Assembly: GCF_008271805.1 (NCBI RefSeq)
Contig: NZ_VSRY01000094.1
Span: 1-64,000 of the forward strand
DNA: 64,000 nucleotides
Source: Streptomyces sp. TRM49041
GTDB lineage: Bacteria; Actinomycetota; Actinomycetes; Streptomycetales; Streptomycetaceae
Direction of reading: 5' to 3'
Position 1 is the first letter of the stretch. Every line of letters begins with the position of its first letter. This document shows, in pieces, positions 46,468 through 64,000 of this stretch. Below the pieces are notes generated by a model. It had not been told where the DNA came from, did no database searches, and saw only the letters and a list, made by a program, of their open reading frames with translations. The position numbers were made by a program, and so were the translations under genes.

Positions 46468-46533
46468 GCAGGCACGGGCTTCGTGATCATTGTGGTGTCT
46501 AAGCCCGATGATCACGAGGTGGCCCGTGCCTGC
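46468..46533 (+). promoter_or_regulatory. Long hairpin covering the transposase start
   Basis: GCAGGCACGGGC (46468-46479) plus TCGTGATCAT (46481-46490) can pair with ATGATCACGA (46508-46517) plus GCCCGTGCCTGC (46522-46533). The right arm holds the GAGGTGG ribosome site and the GTG start at 46526, so RNA read in from outside would hide the start and limit transposition. Confidence 0.6.
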
Positions 46534-47767
46534 TGCTGCATCTTCTCCCATCCCTGCCGTGCTGGTGAAGCTGGGGCCGCTGGACGCCGGCCGGGTCGCA
46601 GACCTGCGCCCCTACTTCGACTCGGTGCCCGACCCGCGCTCGCCGCGGGGCCGGTGGTACTCGCTGACAGCGATCCTGCTGGTCTGTGCCTGCGCGGCCG
46701 TCTCGGGAGCGAAGAGCATCGACGAGCTCGCGGAATGGGGCGAACGTGCCTCGAAGACACTGCTGGCGGTCATCGGCGTCCGTCGCCATCTGCTCACCTG
46801 GCGGCGGGCTCCGTCATCGGCCACGATCGGGCGTGTACTGGGGGCTGTTGACGGTGATTCCCTGGACCGGGCGGTGGGCGCCTACCTGGCCGACCGGCAC
46901 CGCGCGGCCACCGAGCCCGCCGTGACGCCGCGGGTCTCCGCACCCGGGCCACGGCGCGTCATCGCAGTCGACGGCAAAGCGCTCAAGGGATCAGCCCGTT
47001 TCACCTCGGCGCGTCGGCACCTGCTCTCGGCGGTCACCCACGGCTGCGTCGTGACCCTTGCCCAGGCCGAGGTCGGAGCGAAGACGAACGAGACCACGCA
47101 CTTCCGGCCGCTGCTGGCACCGCTGGATCTGGTCGGCACCGTGGTCACCTTCGACGCGCTGCACTCGGTCAAGGCGAACATCTCCTGGCTGGTCGAGACC
47201 AAGAAAGCCCACTACATCGCCGTGATCAAGACCAACCAGCCGACCGCCCACAGCCAGCTCGCGGCCCTGCCGTGGCGGGACATCCCCGTCCAGCACACCG
47301 CCTCCGGGGCCGGGCACGGCAGGCGGGAGTCCCGCTCGATCAAGACCTGCGGGATCGCTGAGGAACTCGGCGGAATCGCCTTTCCCTACGCCCGCCTGGC
47401 CATCCGCGTCCACCGCCGCCGTCGCCAGACCAGCAAGCGCGAGACCCGCGAGAGCGTCTACGCCGTCACCAGCCTCGACGCCCACCAGGTCGGCCCGGCC
47501 GATCTGGCCGCCGCGATCCGTGGGCACTGGGGAGTGGAGAACTCGTCGCACCACATCAGGGACGTCACCTTCGCCGAAGACGCCTCCACCGTCCACACCA
47601 GGACCGCACCTCGCGCCATGGCGACCTTCCGCAACCTCGCCATCGGCGCGCTGAAAACCCTCGGAGCCGGCAACATCGCCAAGGCCACCCGAGCCATCCG
47701 CGACGAACCCGAACGAGCACTCCCCATCCTGGGCATCACCCACAACCCGGACCTCTACGAAACTTGA
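46526..47767 (+). CDS. ISAs1-family transposase
   Basis: The 413-residue product, with start GTG 46526, is complete. It opens with L-R-P-Y-F-D-S-V-P-D-P-R-S-P-R-G-R-W-Y-S-L-T-A-I-L-L, the H_repeat-associated N-terminal domain of ISAs1. The DDE residues appear in V-I-A-V-D-G-K-A-L-K-G, V-V-T-F-D-A-L-H-S-V-K and H-W-G-V-E-N-S-S-H-H-I-R-D-V-T-F. It should cut and join the element's ends. GAGGTGG precedes the start; in-frame upstream codons at 46490 and 46508 are possible starts. Its last codons lie inside the right terminal repeat. Nothing looks inactivating. Confidence 0.9.
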   Translation: MPAAASSPIPAVLVKLGPLDAGRVADLRPYFDSVPDPRSPRGRWYSLTAILLVCACAAVSGAKSIDELAEWGERASKTLLAVIGVRRHLLTWRRAPSSATIGRVLGAVDGDSLDRAVGAYLADRHRAATEPAVTPRVSAPGPRRVIAVDGKALKGSARFTSARRHLLSAVTHGCVVTLAQAEVGAKTNETTHFRPLLAPLDLVGTVVTFDALHSVKANISWLVETKKAHYIAVIKTNQPTAHSQLAALPWRDIPVQHTASGAGHGRRESRSIKTCGIAEELGGIAFPYARLAIRVHRRRRQTSKRETRESVYAVTSLDAHQVGPADLAAAIRGHWGVENSSHHIRDVTFAEDASTVHTRTAPRAMATFRNLAIGALKTLGAGNIAKATRAIRDEPERALPILGITHNPDLYET

Positions 47768-51146: not shown

Positions 51147-51389
51147 TCAGTCGAGTACGCCGAAGTCGACGGCGCCGGACTTCACCGTGTCGATGAACGT
51201 GATGTAGGTGGACCGGGGCAGGGTCAGGGCCGGGCCGTTCTTCTCCTTGGAGTCACGGATGCCGACCAGGGCCTTGCGGACTGCGACCTCGACGCAGTTG
51301 CCACCGCCCTGGTCGCTGTATGACGACTTGAACCACGACCCTTCCGGTGCGGACTCGGTGGAGGGAACGGGCTTCGTGTGATCAGTCAT
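51147..51389 (-). CDS. DUF397-domain protein
   Basis: The 80-residue product is one DUF397 domain: W-F-K-S-S-Y-S-D-Q-G-G-G-N-C-V-E-V-A near residues 18-35, V-G-I-R-D-S-K, G-P-A-L-T-L-P-R-S-T-Y-I-T-F-I-D-T-V-K-S-G. In Streptomyces these small proteins are nearly always paired with a DUF5753 HTH regulator, sometimes behaving like antitoxins or anti-regulators (the BldB/WhiJ type of locus). Its ATG overlaps the regulator's stop by four bases, so the partner is the gene immediately upstream. Confidence 0.93.
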   Translation of the reverse strand: MTDHTKPVPSTESAPEGSWFKSSYSDQGGGNCVEVAVRKALVGIRDSKEKNGPALTLPRSTYITFIDTVKSGAVDFGVLD

Positions 51390-52288
51390 TTCCACAGTTT
51401 CTCTTCGAGTTCCATCAGGAATGACGGCGTCTGGGAGGGCCCCGGCGCCGCCTTTACCATGGCATCGAACTGCCGCTGGTACTGCCCAACATCGGCGGGC
51501 TTCGACCACATGGTGATGGATCGGTAGCCGTCGCTCTGGACCACCGGGTCCAGCTCGTCGAACTCCAGCACCGTGAAGCAGAACCCCGCGCGGTAGGTGG
51601 ACAGGTCTTCGGGGATGATCTGCACCTCTACGTTGTCTTGCTCGCAGAGGCGGATGATCTCCGCGTACTGGGCGCGCATCACCTCGGGGCTGCCGATCTT
51701 CGTGCGCAAAGTGTTCTCGGTCAGGATGATGTGGACCTCGCGGTCGCCGTCCAGCAGGGTCTTGCGTTCCATACGCGCCTGGACGCTGCGCTCGACGGCG
51801 TCGGTCGTTCGCTCCTCCACGATCTTGGCTGAACCCATGAGGGCGCTGGCGTACTGCTCGTCCTGGAGCAGTCCGTGCACCACGTTGTTCTCGAAGCCCC
51901 GGATCCGCACGGACTCACGTTCCAGACCCAGGTACCGCGGCATCCCGGAGGGGAGCACGTTCCTGAAGGTCGTCAGCGGCTCGCTCTTGAGGGAATCGCG
52001 CTGCATCTGCAGCAGGACATCGCGGTCGCTGGGCTCTATGACGTCGTACTCGTCCATCAGCGCTTCGAGGTCCGCCAGCTTGGGCAGCGGGATCTCGCCG
52101 GCCTCCACGCGGCTCAGTTTCGATCGGGAGAAGCCCAGCTTCGTGGAGACGGCCTCGGCGGTGTAGGAGCCCACCTCTTCATCCGGCCCAGCTGTCTCCT
52201 CGGCGTACTTCTTCTTCCGCTCGCGCAGCTCACGCAGCTCCTTGCCGAGCATGACCCGCAGGTACGTCGGTCCCCGTCGTGCCGCCAA
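51386..52288 (-). CDS. Helix-turn-helix regulator with DUF5753 domain
   Basis: The 300-residue product has an N-terminal XRE-type HTH (L-G-K-E-L-R-E-L-R-E-R... S-T-K-L-G-F-S-R-S-K-L-S-R-V-E-A-G-E-I-P-L-P-K) at about 12-75, and a C-terminal DUF5753 domain (F-E-N-N-V-V-H-G-L-L-Q-D-E-Q-Y-A, V-E-V-Q-I-I-P-E-D-L-S-T-Y-R-A-G-F-C-F-T-V-L-E-F). The HTH carries an inserted acidic loop before helix 2. TTG 52288 is chosen because GAGGGGACAG precedes it and A-A-R-R-G-P-T-Y-L-R is the usual start; a GTG at 52300 is possible. It is divergent from the lanthipeptide locus and may regulate it. Confidence 0.92.
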   Translation of the reverse strand: MAARRGPTYLRVMLGKELRELRERKKKYAEETAGPDEEVGSYTAEAVSTKLGFSRSKLSRVEAGEIPLPKLADLEALMDEYDVIEPSDRDVLLQMQRDSLKSEPLTTFRNVLPSGMPRYLGLERESVRIRGFENNVVHGLLQDEQYASALMGSAKIVEERTTDAVERSVQARMERKTLLDGDREVHIILTENTLRTKIGSPEVMRAQYAEIIRLCEQDNVEVQIIPEDLSTYRAGFCFTVLEFDELDPVVQSDGYRSITMWSKPADVGQYQRQFDAMVKAAPGPSQTPSFLMELEEKLWK

Positions 52289-52426
52289 CTGTCCCCTCAC
52301 TTCGGTGCGCTGTTCGCCAGATCGGAGCCTCTGTCTTCCGGACCGAGGTGCCTGTCCGTCAGAAAGAGGGTTGCGTCAGGAGTTTGGCACGACCCGTCCT
52401 CTCTGCAACACCCTCTGTCCACTCGA

Positions 52427-52438
52427 TGGCACTTGCCA
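52427..52438. promoter_or_regulatory. Candidate operator between HTH regulator and lanthipeptide locus
   Basis: TGGCACTTGCCA is an inverted repeat (TGGCA-CT-TGCCA) placed 37 bases ahead of the TAGCGT box that may drive the right-hand operon. The 361-base gap 52,289-52,649 holds no other supportable gene; it must contain both divergent promoters. Symmetry and place are the only evidence. Confidence 0.3.
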
Positions 52439-52474
52439 ATTCGTGCTCGTCTGGGGATTCCCTTGAATGTTAAC

Positions 52475-52480
52475 TAGCGT
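52475..52480 (+). promoter_or_regulatory. Possible -10 box of the regulatory operon
   Basis: TAGCGT within GTTAACTAGCGTGCGC stands 170 bases before the first gene. The same hexamer occurs ahead of the precursor gene (55142-55147) and near 50,885, so it may be a shared promoter element. No good -35 is found. Confidence 0.3.
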
Positions 52481-52649
52481 GCGCATCAAGCTGGTTGCGG
52501 AGGTCGAACCGGAGCCCGTCTCCGCTGGCCCCATGGGGGCGTGTGCCCCCGGATTCGTGCGCGATCCCGGCCTCTGTGAGGGCCGGACCAAGACCCTCGG
52601 GAACCGGGCCGACATCCCCATACTGCCCCCTGACGAGCCGAGGCCAGCA

Positions 52650-53165
52650 ATGCGCCAGAGCATCACCGCCCTTAACACGGGCAGGGACTGGATGGACCGG
52701 GAGCGTGACTTCCACGCACGGTTCCACCCCGACGAGATCCGCGTTGAGATGGACCCGCTGGTCCGGCTGATGAACGACCGTCGCGACGTGCTCAACCGCT
52801 GCCTGACGCGCATAGAGGCAGCGGGGCGCCTCCCGCGGGTGTGCCTGTACCTGCTTGCGGCGCGCGGCATCGAGCCCGCGCACTCCTGCGACGCGGCGCG
52901 GGACTACGCCCTCAAGGAGGGCTGGCAGATCAGCACGCTGCAGGTGTTCACGGACCGTTTCGGTGTGACCGATCCGCTGCTGCGGCCCGGCTGGTCCGCC
53001 GTGCGTCACCAGATCCGGGCCGGGTTCGTCGACGGGGTCGTGACGCTCACGCATTCGGTCATCAGCCCGCACCTGGACGAGTACGAACTCCAGCTCGCCC
53101 TAGTCGAGAAGCACGGCGAGTTCGTCGCGCTCGTGACCCCGGAGACCGCGGGGACGACATCGTGA
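52650..53165 (+). CDS. Unknown protein, first gene of the regulatory operon
   Basis: The 171-residue product is not recognised. It starts R-Q-S-I-T-A-L-N-T-G-R-D-W-M-D-R-E-R-D-F-H-A-R-F-H-P-D-E-I, has R-V-C-L-Y-L-L-A-A-R-G-I-E-P-A, then a resolvase-like stretch, R-A-G-F-V-D-G-V-V-T-L-T-H-S-V-I-S-P-H-L-D-E-Y-E-L-Q-L. The latter resembles the middle of serine-recombinase folds (D-G-V-V-x-x-x-x-x-x-x-S) but the catalytic Ser region is absent. ATG 52650 has GAGG six bases upstream; an in-frame ATG at 52467 lies in the promoter area. It runs 37 bases ahead of the HATPase gene. Confidence 0.65.
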   Translation: MRQSITALNTGRDWMDRERDFHARFHPDEIRVEMDPLVRLMNDRRDVLNRCLTRIEAAGRLPRVCLYLLAARGIEPAHSCDAARDYALKEGWQISTLQVFTDRFGVTDPLLRPGWSAVRHQIRAGFVDGVVTLTHSVISPHLDEYELQLALVEKHGEFVALVTPETAGTTS

Positions 53166-53202
53166 GGCCGGGCCGACACGCCGCCCACCGGGGAGGCCGC
53201 CG

Positions 53203-53637
53203 ATGAGCCCGGCCACAGCCGTCGCACCGGTTGCTGCGAAGCGGCTGCCGCAGACGTCGCGCGCCTTCGAGGCGGCCTTCGAACCGGAGCCGGTGTGTGT
53301 CGGCCGCGCACGGCGGATCACCACCGCCTTCCTCGGGCTGTGGCACGTGAGCGGGCCGCTGGCCGACAACATCGTGCTCGTCGTCTCCGAGCTGGTCAGC
53401 AACGCCGTCGAGCACGGAGCAGGCGATGTCGTGCTGCGCGTGCGGTACCCCGACGACGAGATCCGCATCGAGGTCACCGACGGCAACCCGGCTCCGGCCA
53501 CGAGGCGCTATGCCGGTGATGACGACGTATCGGGGCGCGGCCTGTTGCTCGTCACGGTGCTCGCGCGGAAGTGGGGCGTCATCAACGACGGCCGTACCAC
53601 CTGGGCCACCTTCCGCGTTCCCTCAAGGAGGCCGTGA
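53203..53637 (+). CDS. HATPase-type ATP-binding protein (anti-sigma-factor-like)
   Basis: The 144-residue protein is a single GHKL ATPase domain: R-R-I-T-T-A-F-L-G-L-W-H-V, the N box L-V-V-S-E-L-V-S-N-A-V-E-H-G, the G1 box I-E-V-T-D-G-N-P-A-P and G2 V-S-G-R-G-L-L-L-V-T-V-L-A. It matches the RsbW/SpoIIAB-like kinases very common in Streptomyces, often beside DUF397/DUF5753 genes. The ATG at 53203 follows GGGGAGGCC. Its stop overlaps the next ATG by one base. It may hold a sigma factor or regulator in check in response to ATP and a phosphatase. Confidence 0.92.
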   Translation: MSPATAVAPVAAKRLPQTSRAFEAAFEPEPVCVGRARRITTAFLGLWHVSGPLADNIVLVVSELVSNAVEHGAGDVVLRVRYPDDEIRIEVTDGNPAPATRRYAGDDDVSGRGLLLVTVLARKWGVINDGRTTWATFRVPSRRP

Positions 53638-54119
53638 TGGTAGCCGTCGACGACGTGACCGCCGCGGAGCTGCTGAGCCGGCCGGTTGGCGTCGAGGACG
53701 AGCTGAAGCGCCGGATCGCGCACCTTCTGTCCCGCTCGCTCGCTGACGAGGGCATCGGCGATGACCTGATCGACACCCTCGAAGAAGTCCTCAGCGACCG
53801 GCCGGGACCCGCCGCCCCCAGCCGGAAGATCGACGCCCTCCTACTGCGCTGGGGCCTGCCCGTCCCCCGGCGGCGGCCGCCCGAGGTGGCGCCGCTGACC
53901 GCCAAGGACGCGGCACGGATCACCGACCGGTTCCGCCGGGCCACCCGCCAGCTGACGCAGGTCGTCCCGCACCGCGTCGCGGTGTACCCGACCGAGGAAC
54001 TGCGTGGCCTGCTCGCCCTGCGCGACGAACAGCCTACCCCCGCGCAGGCGTTGTCGTACCTGCGCCGGTACGCCCTGGCGATCCTCGCCGTCCTGGACTT
54101 GATGGGAGACGACGCATGA
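53637..54119 (+). CDS. Unknown helical protein
   Basis: The 160-residue product is probably all helical: A-A-E-L-L-S-R-P-V-G-V-E-D-E-L-K-R-R-I-A-H-L-L-S-R-S-L, then R-I-T-D-R-F-R-R-A-T-R-Q-L-T-Q-V-V-P-H and A-Q-A-L-S-Y-L-R-R-Y-A-L-A-I-L-A-V-L-D-L-M. No family is recognised and no TM. Start ATG 53637 follows AAGGAGG and touches the previous stop; its own stop overlaps the next ATG by four bases. Strict coupling suggests it works with the HATPase and LuxR proteins. Confidence 0.7.
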   Translation: MVAVDDVTAAELLSRPVGVEDELKRRIAHLLSRSLADEGIGDDLIDTLEEVLSDRPGPAAPSRKIDALLLRWGLPVPRRRPPEVAPLTAKDAARITDRFRRATRQLTQVVPHRVAVYPTEELRGLLALRDEQPTPAQALSYLRRYALAILAVLDLMGDDA

Positions 54120-54415
54120 CACCTCCCATCGCAGACGTCGGGCCGCGTCCCTCGCCGGCCCGACGCACCGCCCGGTGCTGGGAGAACACGGCTCCGTACG
54201 TCCCCCACGGGGAGCCGAAGCGCCCCAGCGCCGGGCGGGACCCCTGCCGCCTCGCCTTCGCACTCCTCTGCGCGCTCGCCCTCGCGGCCGTGTGCCGAGC
54301 ACGGTCCCGACGGCGGCCGACACCCGTCATACACCGCCTGGTGGCCGCCGACGAGCTGCGATTCACCGCGCTGTGCCAGCAGATCACCGACGCACACCGA
54401 GGAGTTGAACAGTGA
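54116..54415 (+). CDS. Small single-TM protein
   Basis: A 99-residue product with a basic-polar first 45 residues, one hydrophobic segment (L-A-F-A-L-L-C-A-L-A-L-A-A-V-C), then an Arg-rich stop-transfer (R-A-R-S-R-R-R-P) and a helix H-R-L-V-A-A-D-E-L-R-F-T-A-L-C-Q-Q-I-T-D-A-H. Its start (ATGA) and stop both overlap neighbours by four bases. Unknown family; the topology suggests a small membrane tether. Confidence 0.6.
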   Translation: MTPPIADVGPRPSPARRTARCWENTAPYVPHGEPKRPSAGRDPCRLAFALLCALALAAVCRARSRRRPTPVIHRLVAADELRFTALCQQITDAHRGVEQ

Positions 54416-54879
54416 AGACCACGACCATCACGAAGGTCGTCCTCACGCCCCGTGAGCGGCAGGTCCTCGAGGGCCTGGCCACCGGCGACGCCCTGGCCGT
54501 GGTCGCACGGGACCTCAAGATCCGCGAGGGCACCGCTGCGGGCTACCTCAAGTTGACGAAGAACAAGCTGCACGGCGCGAGCGAGACCGCCGCTGCGGTC
54601 GCCGTCGGCTACGCCACCGAGGCCATCACCCGACCTGCGCTCCTGGACCCCGGGATGCTGTTCCTGCCGCGCGAACAGCGCGACCTCGTCCCGCTCATCG
54701 CACGCGGCATGGCGGCCGCGCAGATGGCCACGGAGCTTGACCGGCCGGTCACCGACGTTCGCGCGGACGGCCGTGAACTCCTGGCGACCCTCCAGGCCCG
54801 CAACCGATCGCACCTGGTCACCCGCGCGTGGCAGTTCCAGGTCCTCACCGCGGGCCAGGTGATCGCATGGCTGAGCTGA
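54412..54879 (+). CDS. LuxR-type HTH protein
   Basis: The 155-residue product has an N-terminal LuxR/GerE HTH: L-T-P-R-E-R-Q-V-L-E-G-L-A-T-G-D-A-L-A-V-V-A-R-D-L-K-I-R-E-G-T-A-A-G-Y-L-K-L-T-K-N-K-L-H-G, with the T-P-R-E opening and the K-L recognition-helix end intact. No receiver domain precedes it; a second weaker HTH-like repeat (F-L-P-R-E-Q-R-D-L-V-P-L-I-A-R-G-M-A-A-A-Q-M-A-T-E-L) follows at about 80-125. GTG 54412 follows GAGGAG. As the last gene before the precursor peptide it is the best candidate activator for it. Confidence 0.82.
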   Translation: MKTTTITKVVLTPRERQVLEGLATGDALAVVARDLKIREGTAAGYLKLTKNKLHGASETAAAVAVGYATEAITRPALLDPGMLFLPREQRDLVPLIARGMAAAQMATELDRPVTDVRADGRELLATLQARNRSHLVTRAWQFQVLTAGQVIAWLS

Positions 54880-54996
54880 CCCGCGGCCCAGCCCCCTGTA
54901 CCGCCTGCCCGCCGCCCGGTGCGTGACGGTCCCGGACGGCGGGCGGGTGCACGACCCGGCAGCCGGGCCTGGAGCAAGGCTCGGTGCCGGAGGAAG

Positions 54997-55039
54997 CGTG
55001 TGGGGAGGAGTCCCCCTCCCACTGGCCCCTCCCCACACG
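54997..55039 (+). terminator. Hairpin after the LuxR-type gene
   Basis: CGTGTGGGGAGG (54997-55008) pairs perfectly with CCTCCCCACACG (55028-55039) around a 19-base loop. It lies 118 bases past the LuxR-type stop and before the precursor's putative promoter, so it likely separates the two transcripts. Confidence 0.6.
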
Positions 55040-55141
55040 CCCGACCTGAGCGAGCGGAGGAAGGGCGTGCAGTTCCAGCCGAACCCCAACAGCTATCCCG
55101 CCCACTGGCCCATAGCCACCCCCGAGGGGCAGTGGCCTGGC

Positions 55142-55147
55142 TAGCGT
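55142..55147 (+). promoter_or_regulatory. Possible -10 box for the precursor gene
   Basis: TAGCGT (in TGGCTAGCGTCAC) lies 163 bases ahead of the precursor start, giving a leader of about 150 bases. The same hexamer stands before the regulatory operon at 52475. No clear -35. Confidence 0.25.
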
Positions 55148-55310
55148 CACAGCCGACCAACCGGCCAGGCGCCCTCACGACCGCGCCCCGACACCTTCCG
55201 GCACGTGACCCAGGTTGCCGGGCCGAAGCGACACGGCACCGCCACCTGGCCCCCAAGCGCCGGGACCCGACCGGGCCCCGGAACCTGCACCACCCGTCAA
55301 GGAGGTATGC

Positions 55311-55502
55311 ATGACCGCCGTCCACCTGGAGCAGCCGGTTGCCCCCGAGCAGCCGACCGCCGACGCCGTCGGCACGGCCGACGACCCGTTCCAGCTCGAC
55401 ATCACCTTCATCGAGAACACGCCGGCCACCGAGACGGTGCTGATGTGCAGCACCGGCGACAACTGCGGGAGCTCCTGCCCGAGCGCCTGCACCACCTCGT
55501 AA
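55311..55502 (+). CDS. FxLD-family lanthipeptide precursor
   Basis: The 63-residue peptide has an acidic/neutral leader with the family motif F-Q-L-D at 27-30 (D-P-F-Q-L-D-I-T-F-I), the mark of FxLD precursors, and a C-terminal core rich in Ser, Thr and Cys: C46, C52, C56 and C60 with S47, T48, S54, S55, S58 and T61-S63 available for dehydration. The segment C-S-T-G-D-N-C holds one Asp-Asn pair, a possible site for the isoaspartate-type methyltransferase. No double-Gly or other clear protease site is seen, so the leader/core boundary is unknown (probably between 30 and 45). ATG 55311 follows a perfect GGAGGT. The biosynthetic genes follow at once. Confidence 0.93.
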   Translation: MTAVHLEQPVAPEQPTADAVGTADDPFQLDITFIENTPATETVLMCSTGDNCGSSCPSACTTS

Positions 55503-55518
55503 CCCAGGCCAGTCCGGC

Positions 55519-55556
55519 GGCGCGGGCCGGACGGAGCTGTCCGTCCGGCCCGCGCC
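55519..55556 (+). terminator. Hairpin between precursor and lanB, partial terminator
   Basis: GGCGCGGGCCGGACGGA (55519-55535) pairs perfectly with TCCGTCCGGCCCGCGCC (55540-55556), loop of only four, followed by CTTTCT. It stands 17 bases after the precursor stop and 28 before the lanB start. Such a hairpin would stop most transcripts after the precursor and let a minority run into the enzyme genes, giving many peptides per enzyme, or protect the short mRNA. Confidence 0.85.
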
Positions 55557-55583
55557 CTTTCTGCCAAGAACGGAGTGTGGGCG

Positions 55584-57623
55584 ATGACGCGCTCACGACA
55601 CAGCCTGTATCGGGGTGCCGGCGACGGGATGCTGCGCGCCGCGGTGAACCTCACCGGGCCTGACATGCCGCCCTGGCCGGGGCCCGCAGCTCCGCTCGAA
55701 CACTGGCGTTCGTGGCTGACCGCGGTATGGGCCGATGACACCTTTCGGCAGGCCGTCTCCGGCGCCAGCCCCGACCTGGCCCGCCAGGTCCAGTCGATCC
55801 TCGACGGGGCGCGTTCACCGAAGGTGCGCCGGGTGAGGCGGGCGGCACTGGCCACCGCCCGGTACGCGATCAGATACACACGCCGCTCCACACCGTTCGG
55901 CCGGTTCGCGGGCGTCGCTCTGATCGGGTTCGGCGACAGGGCCGAGGTGCGCGTCGGGGACCGCCACGAGGCAGTTGCCCGGCCGGACTCGGTGGCGCTG
56001 GACGCGGCGATCAGCGACTGGGAGGCCGACGCCGAGCGGATGGCCGACGCCGAGGTCTGCGTCAACAACCTGGCACGTCAGCGGAGCGGGCGCGTCTACG
56101 TTCCCTCCGAGGGCGCCTCGGAGTTCTCGCTCGCGCTGACGCCCGCTCTCGCGCTGGTGATGGACATGGCACGCTCCCCGATCCGCTTCTCGGCCCTGGC
56201 GGACAAGCTCGCCGCCGAGTTCCCGGACACCACCGCACACCACCGTTCCCGGCTGCTCGTTCAGCTGCTCCGGGTTCGGCTGCTGCGGTCCTCACTGCGC
56301 GCTCCCGCCACCGTCATCGATCCGGCCAGCTCCTTGCCCCCCGCCCTGCTTGTGGACGCCTGGAGGCATTCGGCGGCGCCGGATCTGCGGCTGGACGCCG
56401 CGGTGCGGCTGCCGCAGGCGGTGATGACGGAGGCGGAGACCGCCGCGACAGCCCTGGCACGGCTCGCCGCGCATCCGACGGGCACCCCGGTATGGCGCCG
56501 CTACGCCGAGCAGTTCGCCGACCGCTTCGGTGAGGGCGTCGAGGTGCCGCTGGAGCTGGTGACGGACCCCGAGCGGGGCTTGGGCTTTCCCGACGGGTTC
56601 GGCCACGTGTCCGAGCCTCCCCGCCCGATGACCCGACGCGACCGGCTGCTGCTGGAGCTGGCCGGAACCGCGGCGGCCGAGGGCAACAGGGCGGTGACCC
56701 TGACCGCCGCGATGATAGAGGAACTGGAGGCCGCCGCAGGCACGTCCACGCTCCCCGCACCCCACCTCGAACTGGGCGTGCGCGTCCACGCCAACTCGAC
56801 GCGTGCCCTGGACCGTGGGAACTTCCGCCTTCAGGTCCTAACCGTCTCCCGCGCGGCCGGCTCGATGACGGGCCGGTTCTGGCACCTGTTCCCGCAGACT
56901 GGTGCGTCGTACGCAGAAGTGCCCACGGTCGAGCCCGGCGCGGAGCTGGCCCAGCTCTCCTTCCACGCCGGCCGCATCCTGGCCGACCTGCTCACCCGTG
57001 CCCCGCACGTACTGCCCCGGCTGGTCAGCGTCGGCGAATTCCGGCACCGCACGAAAGAGGTGCTGTTCCCGTCCGACCTGGCCGTCGGCATCCGCGACGG
57101 CCGTCTCTACCTCACCGAGGCCGTCACCGGCACACGCCTGGAACTGCTCGCACCGACCGCGCTGAACTTCCTGTGGAACAACTACACCCCGCCGCTGGCC
57201 CGGTTCCTGGCCGAAATCAGCCGGGCCGCCACCCCGCAGGTGACATGGTTCGACTGGGGCGCGGCCTGGACCCTCCCGTTCACTCCGGCGCTGCACTACC
57301 GCCGTTCGATCCTGGTGTCCGCGCGATGGAAGGTGCGTGCTCGCGATCTGCCCGGCCGTACCGCGACGCTGGATGAATGGGGTGGGCAACTGCGGGCCTG
57401 GATGGGCCGCTTCCGCGTGCCGGACCGCGTGCTCCTGGCCGAGGACGACCAGCACCTCCCCCTCGACCTGTGCCAGGACATGCACCTGGCCCTGCTGCGC
57501 GCCCACCTTGACGCCAGCCCGACCAGAGTCGCGACCCTGCACGACGCGCCGCCGCCGGACGCCGACGGATGGATCGGCGGACGGGCCCACGACCTCGTCC
57601 TCCCGCTGAAGGCACGCCCATGA
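55584..57623 (+). CDS. LanB glutamylation domain protein (lantibiotic dehydratase, N-terminal part)
   Basis: The 679-residue protein is the tRNA-Glu-dependent glutamylation part of class I dehydratases: R-R-V-R-R-A-A-L-A-T-A-R-Y-A-I-R-Y-T-R-R-S-T-P-F-G-R-F-A-G-V at about 75-110 (the S-x-x-x-P-F-G-x-F-A signature), then D-R-G-N-F-R-L-Q-V near 410, and the C-terminal T-K-E-V-L-F-P-S-D-L-A-V-G-I-R-D-G-R-L-Y-L. It lacks the roughly 250-residue elimination domain, which is supplied by the protein two genes downstream. It should glutamylate Ser/Thr of the precursor in the cytosol. ATG 55584 has GGAG upstream; the stop overlaps the next ATG (ATGA). Confidence 0.93.
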   Translation: MTRSRHSLYRGAGDGMLRAAVNLTGPDMPPWPGPAAPLEHWRSWLTAVWADDTFRQAVSGASPDLARQVQSILDGARSPKVRRVRRAALATARYAIRYTRRSTPFGRFAGVALIGFGDRAEVRVGDRHEAVARPDSVALDAAISDWEADAERMADAEVCVNNLARQRSGRVYVPSEGASEFSLALTPALALVMDMARSPIRFSALADKLAAEFPDTTAHHRSRLLVQLLRVRLLRSSLRAPATVIDPASSLPPALLVDAWRHSAAPDLRLDAAVRLPQAVMTEAETAATALARLAAHPTGTPVWRRYAEQFADRFGEGVEVPLELVTDPERGLGFPDGFGHVSEPPRPMTRRDRLLLELAGTAAAEGNRAVTLTAAMIEELEAAAGTSTLPAPHLELGVRVHANSTRALDRGNFRLQVLTVSRAAGSMTGRFWHLFPQTGASYAEVPTVEPGAELAQLSFHAGRILADLLTRAPHVLPRLVSVGEFRHRTKEVLFPSDLAVGIRDGRLYLTEAVTGTRLELLAPTALNFLWNNYTPPLARFLAEISRAATPQVTWFDWGAAWTLPFTPALHYRRSILVSARWKVRARDLPGRTATLDEWGGQLRAWMGRFRVPDRVLLAEDDQHLPLDLCQDMHLALLRAHLDASPTRVATLHDAPPPDADGWIGGRAHDLVLPLKARP

Positions 57624-58693
57624 CCGCGACACCGCCCCCGCCCCGGACGCAGGACCTCTCCGAAGGCGCGCTCGGGATGGCGCTGCTGCACATCGAGCGC
57701 GGTGACCTCGCCGCCGCACGAAGCAGCCTCACGCAGGCGGTTGCAGGCGGCGTCAGCGCCGGACGCAACGCCTCCCTGTTCCACGGCGCCCCTGCCCTGG
57801 AGTTCGTGCTCAACTGCGCCGGGCGCGTCGGCCGCGACGTCCGCGACGCCGTCGACCGCGTCGTGGACGCCCGACTGGCCGCAGCGTCTCGGCGGCAGGC
57901 CTCCGGGGCGCTGCCGCATCTGGCTGAGTTCGACCTGATCCGGGGCCTTGCCGGGCTGGGCGCGCTGCTGCTGACCTGCGGCGAGGCGTCGCCACGGCTG
58001 GAGAAGGTGCTGGCCTACCTGGTCTCCCTGTCGCGGCCGGTCCTCGTCGAGGGCCGACGGGTGCCGGGATGGTGGTCCACGGCCGGGCCCGCCGACGAGG
58101 AGATGCCGGGCGGACACGGCAACAACGGTGTCGCACACGGCATCGCCGGGGTTTCGGCGGCGCTGTCACTCGCCGTTAGGCACGGCGTCCAGGTGCCGGG
58201 ACAGCACGAGGCCATCGAGATGTTCGCGCGCTGGCTGGACACCTACGGCTGCCGCTACTGGATCACCCGCGACCATTTGTCGGCCCCGGAGCCGCCCAGG
58301 CCGGAGCCCGCGCGTCCGTCCTGGTGCTACGGCCAAGTCGGCATCGCCCGCACCCAGCAACTGGCCGCGCTCGCCCTCAATGACCCGGCCCGCAGGCTCG
58401 CGGCAGAGGACACCGTCGCGCACACGCTCGCCGACCCGGCCCTGCTGGGGCGGATCACCGACGCCTCGCTGTGCCACGGCTGGGCCGGCCTTGTGACCGT
58501 GGCCCGCGCCGTCGCCGACGACAGCCCCACACCTGACCGGTTTACACCGCCGATCGAAGACCTCAACAAGCGCCTTGCCGCCGACATGGACCGGCTGACG
58601 AAGCCCGGATTCATGGAAGGCCGTACCGGCGCGCGACTGGCACTGGACGGCACGAACACCACGGGCTGGACCAGAGCCCTGCTGATCACCTGA
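57620..58693 (+). CDS. LanC-type lanthionine cyclase
   Basis: The 357-residue protein has the LanC alpha/alpha-toroid pattern with the zinc ligands Cys236 (S-W-C-Y-G-Q), Cys285 and His286 (L-C-H-G-W-A-G), and the conserved His173 (V-A-H-G-I-A-G) plus G-G-H-G-N-N at about 164-169. It should add Cys thiols to dehydrated Ser/Thr of the precursor and form up to four thioether rings. It opens with L-S-E-G-A-L-G-M-A-L-L-H-I-E-R, the first barrel helix. Its start overlaps the lanB stop by four bases, so the two are translationally coupled. Confidence 0.94.
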   Translation: MTATPPPPRTQDLSEGALGMALLHIERGDLAAARSSLTQAVAGGVSAGRNASLFHGAPALEFVLNCAGRVGRDVRDAVDRVVDARLAAASRRQASGALPHLAEFDLIRGLAGLGALLLTCGEASPRLEKVLAYLVSLSRPVLVEGRRVPGWWSTAGPADEEMPGGHGNNGVAHGIAGVSAALSLAVRHGVQVPGQHEAIEMFARWLDTYGCRYWITRDHLSAPEPPRPEPARPSWCYGQVGIARTQQLAALALNDPARRLAAEDTVAHTLADPALLGRITDASLCHGWAGLVTVARAVADDSPTPDRFTPPIEDLNKRLAADMDRLTKPGFMEGRTGARLALDGTNTTGWTRALLIT

Positions 58694-58741
58694 CCGTCAG
58701 TCCTTCGAGCCGAGCCCTATCGACGAGGAGCGCCCACGATC

Positions 58742-60793
58742 ATGGACGTCGACGACGAGAACCTTCCGATCACCACGCAGACGGACTGGTGGCATGCCAG
58801 CGTGTCATTCCCCGGCAGCGCCGTGAGTCCCGAGGCCGCCCAGGCGCTGTCGTCCGCGTTGGGAGACCAGCGGTTCCACTTCCTGCGCAAGGACGGAGGC
58901 CTGCGCCTGCGCGTCGAGTACTGTGCGGCCGACCTGCTGGACCGCCTCGTCGCCGACCAGCAGGTCAGCGGCTGGGTCGGCGGCGTCTACGAGCCGGAGA
59001 CCGAGGCGTTCGGCGGCCGAGAAGGCATGGACGTCGCGCACGACGTGTTCTGCGCGGACAGTCGCGCCGCCTTGGCCGAGACCGGCAGCCTGGGCGCCCG
59101 GGAGCGCAGTGTGCTGCTGCTGGCCACCATGATCCGGTCGGCCGGGCTGGACCCGTTCGAGGCCGGTGATGTGTGGGCGAAGCTCGGCGCCCTGCGACCG
59201 CCCGTCACCCCGCCCGTCGGCCCGGCGCGCGACCTGGCGGTCTCGGCCATGCGCCGTCTGATGAACGCCGATGCGGCCCTGCGGCCGGATGCCGAGCCCG
59301 GCTGGGCCGAGCGCGTCACCGCCTTCGATACGGCCGGCCGACAGCTGAGGCGGCTCGCCGCTGATGGGCGACTGATGCGGGGCTTGCGCGCGGTGCTCGC
59401 CCATCACGCGATCTTCGCGTTCAACCGCGCTGGAGTGCCGGTCGTTGAGCAGGCCGCTACCGCATGGCTGGGCCGCCAAGTCGCCTTCGCCGAAGACCAA
59501 GCAGCCGACGTGTCTACCCGCCGGTCCGCCTCACCGGACCCTAACCTCACTCGAATGGAGACCACCGTGACACCCGTCACCGACCCCGCTGAACTGCGCG
59601 AAGCGCTCGTGAACCGCCTCATCGACAGCGGCCACCTGCGCACCCCCGCCGCCATCGACGCCTTCCGCAGCACCGAACGCCACCGTTTCCTCCCCGGCGT
59701 CGACCTCCAGAAGGCGTACATCGAAGACGCGGTGCCCACCAAGCATGACAATCACGGCGAGATGATCTCCTGCATCTCCGCGCCCTCCATCGTCGCCACC
59801 CAGCTCGAACAGCTGGGTGCCCAGCCCGGCCACAAGGTCCTGGAAGCCGGTGCCGCCACCGGCTACAACGCCAGCCTCCTCGGGCGGCTCGTGGCCCCCG
59901 GCGGCCACGTGTGGACCGTGGACGTCGACCAGGACCTCGTCGACGGCGCGAACAAGAACCTCGCGCAGGCCGGTGCCTCGAACGTGACCGCGGTACTGGC
60001 CGACGGTGCCGCCGGTCTTCCCGAGCACGCGCCGTTCGACCGCATCCAGTTCACCGTCGGCGCGGGCGATGTGCCTGTGAAGATCCTCGACCAGCTCGCT
60101 CCCGGCGGCCGTCTCGTCCTTCCGATGCGGATCCGCGGCAGTATCTCCCGCAGCTTCGCTTTCGAGCGGGACGGCGACACCTGGAGGACCGTGTCCTGCG
60201 AGATGGCGACGTTCGTGCCCCTGCGCAAGGGCGTCTGCGACGACATCTACACGCTCGTGCGCATGGAGGGTGAGGGCAACGTCCGCCTGGAGACCTTCAG
60301 CGAGCAGGAGGTGGACCGCGACGCGATCCGCACCGTCCTGGACCAGAAGCAAGCCAAGATCTACACAGGGGTGAAGTTCCGCCAGGGCGACCCCTGGGAG
60401 TGGCTGTACCTGTACCTGGCCTCCGTGCTGCCCAACGGCCTGTCCCGCCTCCCCGGCCAGCGGCCCGGGTTCACCCCGCACTTCGGCTGGGGCTCCATGG
60501 CCGCCCTCGACGGCGACACCCTGGCCTACCTGACCATCCGCGAGGGCGAGGACGAGACCGGCAGGTTCTGGGAGATCGGCGTCATCGGCCACGGCTCCCG
60601 CGCCGCCGAACTCGCCGACCAGGTCGCCACCGAGATCCGCGAATGGGACGAAGGCTGGGGCAACACCGCGCCGGAACCCACCTTCCGCATGGCCGTCGGC
60701 GACGCCCGCGACCAGCTCACGGCCGCCGACCCGCGCTTCGTCATCGACAAGACCTACAGCCGTCTCATCGTCGACTGGAAGCGCAAGAGCTGA
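58742..60793 (+). CDS. Fusion: LanB elimination domain plus FxLD-system methyltransferase
   Basis: Residues 1 to about 250 form the SpaB_C/thiopeptide-type elimination domain: W-W-H-A-S-V-S-F at the start, F-H-F-L-R-K-D-G-G-L-R-L-R-V, and Y-E-P-E-T-E-A-F-G-G with M-D-V-A-H-D-V-F-C-A-D-S. Residues 272-683 form an O-methyltransferase of the protein-L-isoaspartate type, with V-L-E-A-G-A-A-T-G-Y-N (about 366-376) as SAM motif I and G-Y-N-A-S-L-L; this is the family known as 'methyltransferase, FxLD system'. It should remove glutamate to give dehydro residues and methylate an Asp of the peptide. A second in-frame ATG exists at the junction. ATG 58742 has GAGGAG twelve to seventeen bases upstream. 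Confidence 0.93.
   Translation: MDVDDENLPITTQTDWWHASVSFPGSAVSPEAAQALSSALGDQRFHFLRKDGGLRLRVEYCAADLLDRLVADQQVSGWVGGVYEPETEAFGGREGMDVAHDVFCADSRAALAETGSLGARERSVLLLATMIRSAGLDPFEAGDVWAKLGALRPPVTPPVGPARDLAVSAMRRLMNADAALRPDAEPGWAERVTAFDTAGRQLRRLAADGRLMRGLRAVLAHHAIFAFNRAGVPVVEQAATAWLGRQVAFAEDQAADVSTRRSASPDPNLTRMETTVTPVTDPAELREALVNRLIDSGHLRTPAAIDAFRSTERHRFLPGVDLQKAYIEDAVPTKHDNHGEMISCISAPSIVATQLEQLGAQPGHKVLEAGAATGYNASLLGRLVAPGGHVWTVDVDQDLVDGANKNLAQAGASNVTAVLADGAAGLPEHAPFDRIQFTVGAGDVPVKILDQLAPGGRLVLPMRIRGSISRSFAFERDGDTWRTVSCEMATFVPLRKGVCDDIYTLVRMEGEGNVRLETFSEQEVDRDAIRTVLDQKQAKIYTGVKFRQGDPWEWLYLYLASVLPNGLSRLPGQRPGFTPHFGWGSMAALDGDTLAYLTIREGEDETGRFWEIGVIGHGSRAAELADQVATEIREWDEGWGNTAPEPTFRMAVGDARDQLTAADPRFVIDKTYSRLIVDWKRKS
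59542..59557 (+). promoter_or_regulatory. Possible internal leaderless start of the methyltransferase domain
   Basis: TAACCT (59542-59547) lies seven bases before the in-frame ATG at 59555 (Met272), exactly at the start of the methyltransferase domain (M-E-T-T-V-T-P-V-T-D-P). A short transcript from here would yield the 412-residue methyltransferase alone. Confidence 0.35.
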
Positions 60794-60797
60794 GCCG

Positions 60798-61895
60798 ATG
60801 ATCCCCGCGATAGCCAGCCGCATCCCGCTGGTCCGCCGCCCCAAGGCACCTGCGTTACCGCTGGACGAGCGCATCACCCACCTCACCGAGCTGACCGTCG
60901 CGCCCGCTGGCGCGAGCCACCCCGACCTGGTGGCCCGCGCCAGCGGGGTCCTCAACTACGCCGCGCTGATCGCCTCCGACGCCGGGATGCCCGACCTGGC
61001 GGCCGACCTGTGCTGGAAGCAGCACAAGGTCTTCGCCGGCGCCGGACACCTCACGGGAGACATCGCCGTGATGGCGCTCATGCCCCTGATCAACATCTCC
61101 CGGCTGCTGACCCGCGAGGGCGACGGCGAAGCCGCCTACGACGTACTCACACGGCTCTACCGCGCCGCCCAGAAACGCGGCACCACCGAGATCCGCGGCC
61201 ACACCGTCGACCTGTCCACGCTGATCAACACCGACGCAGACCACCAGACCATCTGCAAAGAGCTGTGGGTCACCGTCCTCGTCGACGGCGCCAGGGCCCT
61301 GGCCCGCATCGGCCGCTGGACCGAAGCCGCCGACGCCATGACCGCACACCGCGGCATCGGCAACCGCCTCCTCGACGGACGCCAAATCAAGATCATGTCG
61401 CTGATGGAACGCGGCCTCACCCAGCAGGCCCGCGACACCATCGACTCCACCACCCCCACAGAACCGTGGGAAAACACCGTCGCGAGTCTTCTGCGCATCT
61501 GCTGCCGGCCCGCGACCTCACCCCCACGGCAGCCAGAGCTCGACCTTGCCCTGAAGGAAGCCCTCGCGCTGCTCACCCCGCCCGACCCCGAGACCGCCGC
61601 ATTCCAGGCCCGCGTCGGACTGACCGCGCTCGAACTCGCCCGCGACCACACCAGCTACCACGACGCCCTCCTACCGCAAGCCGTCGCCGAGGTGGCGAGC
61701 CTCGACGCCTACGCCGCCCGCGACGTCCTGGACCACCTCGCCGCGCGCTCCTGCCTGAGCGGTGAGCAGAGACGGCAACTCGACGCCGTACTCACCGCGT
61801 CAGGGATCGGTGCAGGGAACCTCCCGCAAGCCCACATGCGCACCCTTACCGAAGCCGTGGACAAAGCCGAAGCCTCACTCCGCGGGCTTCTGTAG
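60798..61895 (+). CDS. Helical-repeat protein of the lanthipeptide operon
   Basis: The 365-residue product is predicted wholly helical, TPR-like: L-D-E-R-I-T-H-L-T-E-L-T-V-A-P-A-G-A-S-H near the start, then pairs such as A-A-Y-D-V-L-T-R-L-Y-R-A-A-Q-K-R-G and A-L-A-R-I-G-R-W-T-E-A-A-D-A-M-T-A-H-R-G-I-G. No catalytic motif. It starts 4 bases after the methyltransferase stop, so it belongs to the operon. I do not know its role; scaffolding of the modifying enzymes or regulation are possible. Confidence 0.75.
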   Translation: MIPAIASRIPLVRRPKAPALPLDERITHLTELTVAPAGASHPDLVARASGVLNYAALIASDAGMPDLAADLCWKQHKVFAGAGHLTGDIAVMALMPLINISRLLTREGDGEAAYDVLTRLYRAAQKRGTTEIRGHTVDLSTLINTDADHQTICKELWVTVLVDGARALARIGRWTEAADAMTAHRGIGNRLLDGRQIKIMSLMERGLTQQARDTIDSTTPTEPWENTVASLLRICCRPATSPPRQPELDLALKEALALLTPPDPETAAFQARVGLTALELARDHTSYHDALLPQAVAEVASLDAYAARDVLDHLAARSCLSGEQRRQLDAVLTASGIGAGNLPQAHMRTLTEAVDKAEASLRGLL

Positions 61896-62021: not shown

Positions 62022-63362
62022 ATGGCCGAGCGTGTTGCCCCGGGCCGGGCAGATCATCTGGTCACTCTGGCCGCCGCCGACAGTGTGTGGGCCAGCCTGA
62101 CGGCCGGTAGCGCGGTACCGACGACTTCCGCAGTATTCACCTGCTTTCCTTCTGATGTCCGGCCGGGGCGGTACGTCTTGCTCGGTACGTGTGTGGTGGA
62201 GCTGGTGATGACGGAGGACGGCTGGTGGAGAGTTCCGGAGGCTGAGGTGCGCCGGGCGGCGGCGGCATGGAACGCGGTGGAGGTGGACGCCCTGGATCTG
62301 GTCCGTATCGGTCCGTTCCGTGGTGTGCCAGAGCAGGAGCGCCCGGGTGGAACGCTGCGTGGTTGGCGCCGGCGCATCAGCTGGGAACTGCAAGAGGCAG
62401 ATCATCCCGGACGGCAGGCCGGCCATGAGCCCGGACCGTGGTCTCATCTGGCGGGGGTCGACTGGCGGCGGCTGCTGGTGCAGCGGTCCCGTGACGGGGT
62501 CGAGCGGTCGTGGTGGCTTCCGCGTGCCGTGGTCAGGCTGCTGGACACGGCCGAGCACACCGAAGCCGAGTGGCTGCACACCACGCGGGTCGGCAAGGCG
62601 GAGACAGCTGTCACCGAACAGCACCGCCGGGGTCCCCGAGCCACCGACAGCCAGTCCGCGACGGGCGTGAACGGTCCAGCCATCCCGCAGCGCCCGTATA
62701 CGGGGGAGCTGCGGGGTCAGTTGTACTCGGTGCTGAGCCGCAAGCCGGGTATGTCCCGCCAGGTGGCCGGGTGGGTGTGTGCCGTCTGCAGTACGGCGCC
62801 GGCTGCTGTGCTGGATCACTGCCATGAACACGGCTACGTCCGCGCCCCGGTCTGCCTGTCCTGCAACACACTGGAGCGCCCCGACCACCTGTACGACAAC
62901 GACATCCGCGTCGCCAGCCGCTACCACCGCCTCTTCGAGACCGACGCGGTCGGCTGGCTGCGCCACTGGCACCGCTGTCCGGGCTGCCGCACCCGCACCA
63001 CTCTGCCTCTGCCTCACCTCGCCGCATGGACCGCCCACACCGCCACCCGCACCCTGCGCCCCACCCACCCTGACTCCCGCGGGCGGAAGCCTTGCGGAGT
63101 GCTGCGCGTCTCGTGGACGGGCAGTCAGAACACACCTCGCTCCTGCCTGCTCACCGTCTCCGTCGACTTCTGCCCCGCCGGTGAGCACCGCGTCCTGGCA
63201 CGGGTGCCCTACCGGGAGGCTATCGAGCGGTTCGGTACCTGGCTGGCCGAGACCGCCCCTGCTGTGGCGGCCGAAGCCGGTCCCGACCGCCTGGACGGCC
63301 TCCCTGCCGAACCCCGGCCCGTCATAGCTGACACCAGCGGCGAAGGCCTGGCGCTCTTCTGA
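62022..63362 (+). CDS. Protein with endonuclease VII-like HNH domain
   Basis: The 446-residue product has an unrecognised N-terminal half and, at about 252-300, W-V-C-A-V-C-S-T-A-P-A-A-V-L-D-H-C-H-E-H-G-Y-V-R-A-P-V-C-L-S-C-N-T-L-E, the treble-clef motif (CxxC...DHCH...CLxCN) of recombination endonuclease VII. A second Cys pair, H-R-C-P-G-C-R-T-R-T, follows at about 325. A TAGTCT box stands six bases before the ATG, suggesting a leaderless mRNA. It lies after the lanthipeptide operon on the same strand but 126 bases away and is probably unrelated to it. Likely phage- or mobile-element-derived. Confidence 0.8.
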   Translation: MAERVAPGRADHLVTLAAADSVWASLTAGSAVPTTSAVFTCFPSDVRPGRYVLLGTCVVELVMTEDGWWRVPEAEVRRAAAAWNAVEVDALDLVRIGPFRGVPEQERPGGTLRGWRRRISWELQEADHPGRQAGHEPGPWSHLAGVDWRRLLVQRSRDGVERSWWLPRAVVRLLDTAEHTEAEWLHTTRVGKAETAVTEQHRRGPRATDSQSATGVNGPAIPQRPYTGELRGQLYSVLSRKPGMSRQVAGWVCAVCSTAPAAVLDHCHEHGYVRAPVCLSCNTLERPDHLYDNDIRVASRYHRLFETDAVGWLRHWHRCPGCRTRTTLPLPHLAAWTAHTATRTLRPTHPDSRGRKPCGVLRVSWTGSQNTPRSCLLTVSVDFCPAGEHRVLARVPYREAIERFGTWLAETAPAVAAEAGPDRLDGLPAEPRPVIADTSGEGLALF

Positions 63363-63685: not shown

Positions 63686-64000
63686 TCAGGTGGGTCTGAT
63701 GGTCAGGCCGGTCTCGGCGAGGCAGCCGTCTATCAGGTGGCTGCGGTACTGGATGTGCCGGAGGCCGCGTCGGATGCGCTGGACGAGGTGTTCGGGGGTA
63801 TTGAAGGCGACGTTGGAGAGCCAGCCCCGCCGCAGTAGTGACCAGATCCCTTCGACGGGGTTGAGGTCGGGTGCGTAGGGCGGCAAGTAGTAGATGGTCA
63901 GCCAGTCCCGGGCTTCGGCGAACTCCCGCAGCCCGGCGGCCTTGTGAACGTTCAGGTTGTCCCAGACGAGCACGATCGGGCCCCCGAGCTGCTGGTGGGC
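63686..64000 (-). CDS. IS630-type transposase, cut by the window edge
   Basis: The minus-strand frame is open at the right edge and reads I-V-L-V-W-D-N-L-N-V-H-K-A, then Y-Y-L-P-P-Y-A-P-D-L-N-P-V-E-G-I-W-S-L-L-R-R-G-W, the second Asp and the Glu of the DDE catalytic triad in the IS630/Tc1-mariner form, and ends L-T-I-R-P-T. Only the C-terminal 104 codons lie inside the window. The element's end must fall near 63,655-63,680; a target TA cannot be confirmed without the other end. Confidence 0.88.
   Translation of the reverse strand, partial: AHQQLGGPIVLVWDNLNVHKAAGLREFAEARDWLTIYYLPPYAPDLNPVEGIWSLLRRGWLSNVAFNTPEHLVQRIRRGLRHIQYRSHLIDGCLAETGLTIRPT

Follow-up and report, generated by a model that had tools for sequence, protein, structure and literature searches.

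Described clusters of the coi, spt and olv types

The coi cluster of Streptomyces coelicolor A3(2), comprising CoiA1, CoiB, CoiC, CoiSA and CoiH (PMC9486935), the spt (SapT) cluster with its SptBa/SptBb pair (PMC9011353, PMC9890492) and the olv clusters of the lanthimiditides, represented by OlvSA (PMC13001092), are the described systems closest to the class I lanthipeptide cluster of Streptomyces sp. TRM49041 analyzed here. The window is the whole stretch of 64,000 nucleotides that was studied (positions 1 to 64,000 of contig NZ_VSRY01000094.1, labeled C90, of a 7.49-Mb genome), and the cluster occupies window positions 55311-61895. Its LanB lacks the glutamyl lyase domain, and we consider it probable that this coi-like class I lanthipeptide cluster, being without the usual lyase, relies for dehydration on a lyase fused to a methyltransferase.

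CoiSA is a fusion of the same kind, a syn-glutamyl lyase that carries K46, R51 and R53 and has a hydrophobic residue in place of Arg826. Glutamylated peptide was reported to build up in the K46A mutant, with R51A and R53A having mild effects, and when the lyase of CoiB was mutated the CoiSA lyase alone eliminated at all three Thr (PMC9486935). CoiB itself is full-length with its own anti lyase, and other published coi-type clusters, as far as they are described, also keep a full-length LanB. In the spt system, glutamyl transferase and syn-type lyase stand on separate chains and no anti lyase is described; SptBb was shown to catalyze syn-elimination to (E)-dehydrobutyrine (Dhb) (PMC9890492), acts as a stand-alone protein not fused to a methyltransferase, and serves SapT, a morphogen with another core. 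According to PMC9011353, "almost all" clusters of the SapT group have two elimination domains, a wording that implies exceptions. The olv clusters, as described in PMC13001092, combine a full-length LanB with a methyltransferase of the protein isoaspartate methyltransferase (PIMT) type and a conserved core Asp inside a methyllanthionine (MeLan) ring, with no syn lyase. Gly typically follows this Asp, as in the TxDGC motif (PMC10787088), although Thr, Asn and Asp are also listed at that position in the Asp chemistry review (PMC13001092). Split LanBs and elimination-PIMT fusions were both noted by Walker et al. (PMC7268733). No title or abstract opening in the literature searched describes a cluster with a fused lyase as its sole lyase, supplements and subscription papers lying outside that scope.

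Architecture of the cluster

The sequence-only reading of the window had named an FxLD-type class I lanthipeptide cluster with an elimination-domain/methyltransferase fusion. Profile searches bear this out, since the precursor (TIGR04363), LanB transferase (PF04738), LanC (PF05147) and methyltransferase (TIGR04364) all score over their cut-offs; precursor, LanC and methyltransferase thus fall into the expected families, and relatives carry the precursor too. The elements of the cluster are as follows.

55311..55502, + strand: preA, FxLD precursor peptide (63 aa; TIGR04363 59.6 bits against a cut-off of 30)
55519..55556, + strand: perfect 17-bp hairpin, attenuator-like, between the precursor and LanB genes (fold calculation)
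55584..57623, + strand: split LanB, glutamyl transferase only (PF04738 533.6 bits in two stretches)
57620..58693, + strand: LanC cyclase (PF05147 103 bits)
58742..60793, + strand: LanS fusion of a syn-type glutamyl lyase (about aa 15-250) and a PIMT-type methyltransferase (PF14028, PF01135, TIGR04364)
60798..61895, + strand: helical TPR-like protein in the CoiH position (sub-threshold TPR match)

All five genes are open frames in the window, and AGGAGG stands 5' of the precursor gene. With the LanC start set at ATG 57620, LanB and LanC overlap by 4 bases, 48 bases separate LanC from the fusion, and 4 bases separate the fusion from the helical gene. The helical protein is almost all helix in its predicted structure (predicted local distance difference test, pLDDT, 88) and matched none of the solved folds at E≤0.001 in a structure comparison; that it corresponds to CoiH is a guess from gene position.

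A LanB that ends before the lyase domain

No PF14028 match was obtained for the window LanB in the profile search. Past the transferase match, in the sample of loci taken from the family, the frame continues for 1 residue in five intact short LanBs (5 in the broken copy of locus L246) and for 276-308 residues in 50 of 52 longer LanBs, the exceptions being L250 (381) and L257 (91). Orthologues of the short LanB stop at the same place as the window protein. The extra part of the long LanBs is a canonical lyase with RxR, an Arg in GRWG-like motifs and a His in LLHxH, motifs retained by most of the 12 aligned loci with a full LanB (L085 and L087 depart in RxR).

In the LanB tree, short LanBs form one clade (support 100/100) and the full-length LanB of contig C154 in the same genome falls outside it (99/97). 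Since the short LanBs form a single clade with this full-length protein outside, loss of the lyase domain from LanB is the simpler reading of the sequences. The split makes the fused lyase the only lyase in the cluster, a point absent from the sequence-only reading.

This was extended to 57 loci from a scan of named genomes, in which a hidden Markov model (HMM) of the LanB-type lyase gave weak matches in 25, at no more than 24 bits against 256 bits for a control. The fusion itself accounted for 24 of the 25, and the other was a short stretch in L172. A plain coi-type cluster is ruled out, because no anti lyase was found in the LanB or, beyond these weak matches, in the 57 loci.

The fused lyase-methyltransferase

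The fusion protein matches PF14028 at aa 38-241, PF01135, and TIGR04364 (424.7 bits; cut-off 320); the methyltransferase part spans aa 283-679 and includes a C-terminal extension. Residues K50, R55 and R57 are invariant in all 35 aligned fusions of the short-LanB clade, and at the position of NisB Arg826 the 16 fusions compared carry A (14) or T (2), the window protein having A89. Neither Arg826 nor the LLHxH motif of canonical lyases is present in the fused lyase. K50, R55 and R57 without an Arg826 equivalent form the residue signature described for the syn-glutamyl lyases CoiSA and SptBb. In a lyase tree built without two broken rows, L077 and L086, fused lyases from short- and full-LanB clusters group together (99/98), apart from the lyase domains of LanBs.

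The structural model of the fusion is weak (mean pLDDT 66, predicted template modeling score, pTM, 0.40), and its Foldseek matches to MibB/NisB and to PIMTs back the sequence assignment only. No PDB entry was matched when the fused lyase domain was searched with phmmer, and the fusion profile reaches NisB weakly, at E 0.028.

The dehydration logic of the cluster, as read from its genes, is a hybrid, sharing with spt the separate transferase and syn-type lyase chains without an anti lyase, and with coi the fusion of that lyase to a methyltransferase (K50, R55, R57 and A89 in the window). It differs from coi in that its LanB is not full-length and has no anti lyase, and from spt in that its lyase is not stand-alone. 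Beside coi-like clusters in two further loci (L083:7339-8601 and L126:500-1843), stretches with about 75-77% identity to the window methyltransferase half occur without a lyase part, and the halves of the fusion may move independently.

Distribution of the short-LanB cluster

FxLD clusters are of an ordinary kind, as the family-level counts indicate: of 200 genomes in the family, 96 have a TIGR04364 match above threshold, and a precursor scores above its own threshold in 65 of 150. A LanB match at E≤1e-60 was obtained in 88 of the 295 genus genomes; besides the window, 14 of them hold the short LanB at 66-83% identity, and the remaining matches show at most 48% identity and open frames of at least 777 aa. 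Precursor, LanB, LanC, fusion and helical gene stand in one order in all 14 short-LanB loci of the genus. Three of these (L064, L065 and L075) have a break in the LanB or LanC frame, in L075 probably through an assembly gap.

The 57 loci of the named-genome scan come from Streptomyces, Nonomuraea, Microbispora, Streptosporangium, Actinomadura, Actinocorallia, Frankia, Streptoalloteichus and others. The five genes are in order in 50 of them, a few of these broken, and five of the other seven run into a contig end. Locus L153 (S. pilosus) is without the fusion and helical genes, and L186 is without the precursor and the start of LanB, with no run of N in its sequence. Several loci with genome (G) handles and named loci derive from the same assemblies, so that loci in these counts are not independent. 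Chance association of the genes is excluded by the presence of homologous clusters in dozens of genomes.

A broken copy was also observed in L191 (Streptomyces philanthi), where the LanB, fusion and helical genes are in pieces. Streptomyces philanthi is an insect symbiont.

Precursor peptide and predicted rings

The core of the window peptide contains C46, T48, D50, C52, S55, C56, S58, C60, T62 and S63. Precursors were found in 70 of 72 loci (none in L186 and L190), and all 67 found by pattern, representing 39 distinct peptides, were used for comparison of the core. Twelve residues (C46, T48, D50, C52, G53, S55, C56, P57, S58, A59, C60 and S63) are invariant in the 39 peptides, T42 occurs in 37 and T62 in 35. 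The conserved core Asp in TxDxC expected of a lanthimiditide is present throughout these peptides, as T48, D50 and C52. In L177, L185 and L195 the precursor has FxLN in place of FxLD, with the same core pattern.

The rings reported for CoiA1 are T43-C47, T50-C55 and T57-C51 (PMC9486935). Shifted by +5, the CoiA1 residues T43, C47, T50, C51, C55 and T57 fall on T48, C52, S55, C56, C60 and T62, of which five are invariant and the sixth, T62, is present in 35 of the 39 peptides. The window peptide therefore shares with CoiA1 the spacing of ring residues and the TxDxC motif, and differs in having Ser for Thr in ring B and an extra Cys, C46. The ring-B residue is Ser in all 39 peptides here; the 42 distinct precursors (from 60 loci) that accompany a full-length LanB have Thr there in 38 cases and Ser in 4. 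One member of this full-LanB set has Gly for Asp; the set leaves out short-LanB loci, loci without a recognized precursor or LanB, and L257 (whose LanB frame ends early), L279 and L280 (both with another Cys pattern, L280 also with no LanB).

Of the 67 precursors, 62 are of standard length (the five of other length were left out), and these comprise 44 distinct at the DNA level. D50 is followed by Asn in 18 and Thr in 26 of the 44, compared with Gly in 27 and Asn in 15 of the full-LanB set; this Asn/Thr also separates the window type from olv, where Gly is typical. The core pN/pS ratio, pooled over nine divergent members across divergent genera, is 0.14. Such a near-frozen core may point to a standing role, for example in signaling or development, rather than to an arms-race antibiotic.

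Proposed pathway

The chemistry, regulation and export outlined here are what we infer from family membership, homology and gene order. LanB would bind the FxLD leader and glutamylate core Ser/Thr from Glu-tRNA, as is expected of its family. Because LanB has no lyase domain, the methyltransferase-fused lyase would have to strip all glutamates, and because its residues are of the syn type, Thr would become (E)-Dhb, and S55 would become dehydroalanine (Dha), which has no E/Z isomers. LanC would then add Cys thiols to give rings T48-C52, S55-C60 and T62-C56 by CoiA1 homology, with C46 possibly pairing with T42. Thr-derived rings would be D-allo-L-MeLan, and one ring would be Ser-derived. The methyltransferase half would methylate D50 inside the first ring, leading to aspartimide and then isoaspartate (isoAsp). 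The suggestion in the sequence-only reading of a methylated or isomerized Asp agrees with the methyltransferase family match and the literature, and such a modification remains likely by analogy.

The hairpin 3' of the precursor gene may lower enzyme relative to precursor message. Its region folds at -56.4 kcal/mol over 81 nt (z -5.45), and a strong fold between the precursor and LanB genes occurs in 36 of 53 loci, window counted, by a cruder shuffle test.

A wider proposal, which we put forward only tentatively and rate slightly short of an even chance, is that this is a widespread and strongly conserved actinomycete peptide made by a lyase-less LanB and a bifunctional syn-lyase/Asp-methyltransferase as the only lyase, with D-allo-L Thr rings only, an aspartimide/isoAsp, and a LanC adapted to (E)-Dhb.

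Alternative explanations

Several observations weigh against reliance on the fused lyase. CoiC did not cyclize a peptide that only the syn lyase had dehydrated (PMC9486935), so that the window LanC would need to tolerate (E)-Dhb at T48. Some syn lyases have been suggested to be Thr-specific (PMC9486935), yet S55 needs handling in this peptide. Having Ser in ring B would avoid one of the two positions at which CoiC failed with (E)-Dhb, as Ser gives Dha, without E/Z isomers. T62 is replaced by G or N in four of the 39 peptides, all longer-tailed, while S63 and S58 are invariant, which leaves the donor of the last ring unsure; where T62 is absent, the role would fall to another residue, S63 for instance. 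Both a T42-C46 ring and a coupling of the ring-B Thr/Ser choice to LanB type are suggested by sequence counts from loci that are not independent. The LanB tree, for which the tool warned of two long outgroup branches, does not resolve how the full-length groups branch, and broken copies of the cluster exist (L153, L185, L186 and L191).

The strongest of the alternatives is ordinary coi/olv chemistry in which a canonical anti lyase elsewhere, such as that of the C154 LanB, dehydrates some residues and the fused lyase serves one. This we regard as unlikely. In 10 of 15 cluster-bearing genomes, including that of the window, one to four other PF14028 matches are present. Two such proteins occur in the window genome, the C154 full-length LanB, a further class I LanB whose lyase domain is canonical, and a thiopeptide-like protein of contig C167, so that another lyase could help in trans in this strain. 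Against this, the LanB of C154 is only distantly related and would need to recognize the leader of another cluster. In the other 5 of the 15 genomes PF14028 matches nothing but the fusion at E≤0.01. Two of these assemblies, G190 and G443, are near-complete (1 and 9 contigs); G292 and G308 are split over many contigs, and G401 has a completeness of 85%.

The two additional proteins of the window genome lie at G000:C154:68955-71963, the full-length LanB, and at C167:29260-32564, which looks like a split thiopeptide-type pair.

Next is the reading that the cluster is a remnant without product in the window strain. It draws on the lack of a matched exporter or protease nearby, on the transposase and endonuclease VII genes that flank the cluster, and on the broken copies in some relatives; with five genes all open and a core pN/pS of 0.14 across divergent genera, it seems improbable. 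Least probable of all is that the fused N-terminal domain is a substrate-binding or other non-lyase domain and the split LanB a peptide aminoacyl-tRNA ligase: Arg826 and LLHxH are indeed missing and annotated lantibiotic dehydratases can be such ligases (PMC11212132, PMC11117183), but the residues reported for CoiSA/SptBb are invariant, and LanC and the ring-forming Ser/Thr/Cys are conserved.

Upstream genes and export

Upstream of the cluster whose dehydration probably depends on the fused lyase, seven genes were annotated.

51147..51509, - strand: DUF397 protein (PF04149 65.2 bits; domain at aa 58-110, true start uncertain)
51386..52300, - strand: HTH-DUF5753 regulator (PF19054, PF13560)
52467..53165, + strand: 232-aa protein, first operon gene, no family (homologues in 3 of 149 other genus genomes)
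53203..53637, + strand: HATPase_c_2, anti-sigma-factor-like (PF13581 52.3 bits)
53634..54119, + strand: 161-aa protein, weak DUF6415 (PF19979 21.6 bits, under the cut-off of 27.5)
54116..54415, + strand: 99-aa regulatory operon protein, no Pfam family (homologues adjoin LuxR in L117 and L119)
54412..54879, + strand: LuxR-type (GerE) regulator (PF00196 40 bits)

The HTH-DUF5753/DUF397 pair was recognized correctly in the sequence-only reading, and both genes are on the minus strand. As specific evidence the pair is ruled out by 29 DUF5753 matches in the window genome. The description of a five-gene overlapping operon was slightly too strong, in that three 4-base overlaps join the HATPase, 161-aa, 99-aa and LuxR genes and the first gene ends 37 bases 5' of the HATPase gene.

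The upstream HATPase/LuxR operon may control expression of the cluster, and it recurs 5' of certain other FxLD clusters. LuxR homologues occur in 14 other genomes among 150 searched, and in 6 of the 14 one lies within 10 kb, at 2.5-7 kb, from a class I LanB (in 3 of 8 at an identity of at least 50%), whereas chance, estimated from about one such LanB per three genomes, would give well under 1%. In 4 of 13 other genomes a homologue of the HATPase stands no more than 10 kb from a LanB. These associations lend some support to the earlier view that the cluster has its own regulatory operon, but among the 57 named loci, six of which have less than 3 kb of upstream sequence, the HATPase is upstream, within 7 kb, in only two (L164 and L189), so that the operon is ruled out as a constant element of such clusters. 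Thirteen of the 14 G-handle loci (two with less than 3 kb upstream) gave no regulator match, and the other has a HATPase of 41% identity 4 kb downstream. The module looks, from its gene neighborhoods, like a portable regulator set that stands upstream of the cluster in the window strain.

At L122:6994-7992 an HATPase/LuxR module stands beside a weak MvdD-like pre-ATP-grasp match, below cut-off, a possible graspetide use. Two LuxR copies are near a glycosyl hydrolase gene.

A transporter and leader protease had been described as missing, and neither was found among the families matched in the studied interval. Lack of a protease is usual for olv and coi clusters (PMC9486935), and the cluster shares it with coi. 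Lack of a transporter is not universal, since an ABC transporter gene lies 3' of the helical gene in 17 of the 57 named loci (13 at 90% or more) and in 9 of the 14 G-handle loci, for example at L066:2874-4907; it may serve in export. No orthologue of this transporter was found in the window genome, where the best-scoring match has 29% identity. Leader protease and exporter would come from elsewhere in the genome.

An endonuclease VII-type protein and DDE transposases flank the region (window 62022-63362, 63686-64000 and 46490-47767), and the surroundings are possibly mobile.

Significance

Whether any cyclase accepts a peptide that only a syn lyase has dehydrated was not settled by the published coi work, since CoiC did not. 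The short-LanB clade looks as if this test had been run in nature, and in it Ser is fixed at one of the two positions where CoiC failed. Its five genes may offer a simple system for asking how stereochemistry is controlled, in what order dehydration and Asp modification proceed when one enzyme carries both activities, and what a near-unchanged peptide does in several actinomycete families.

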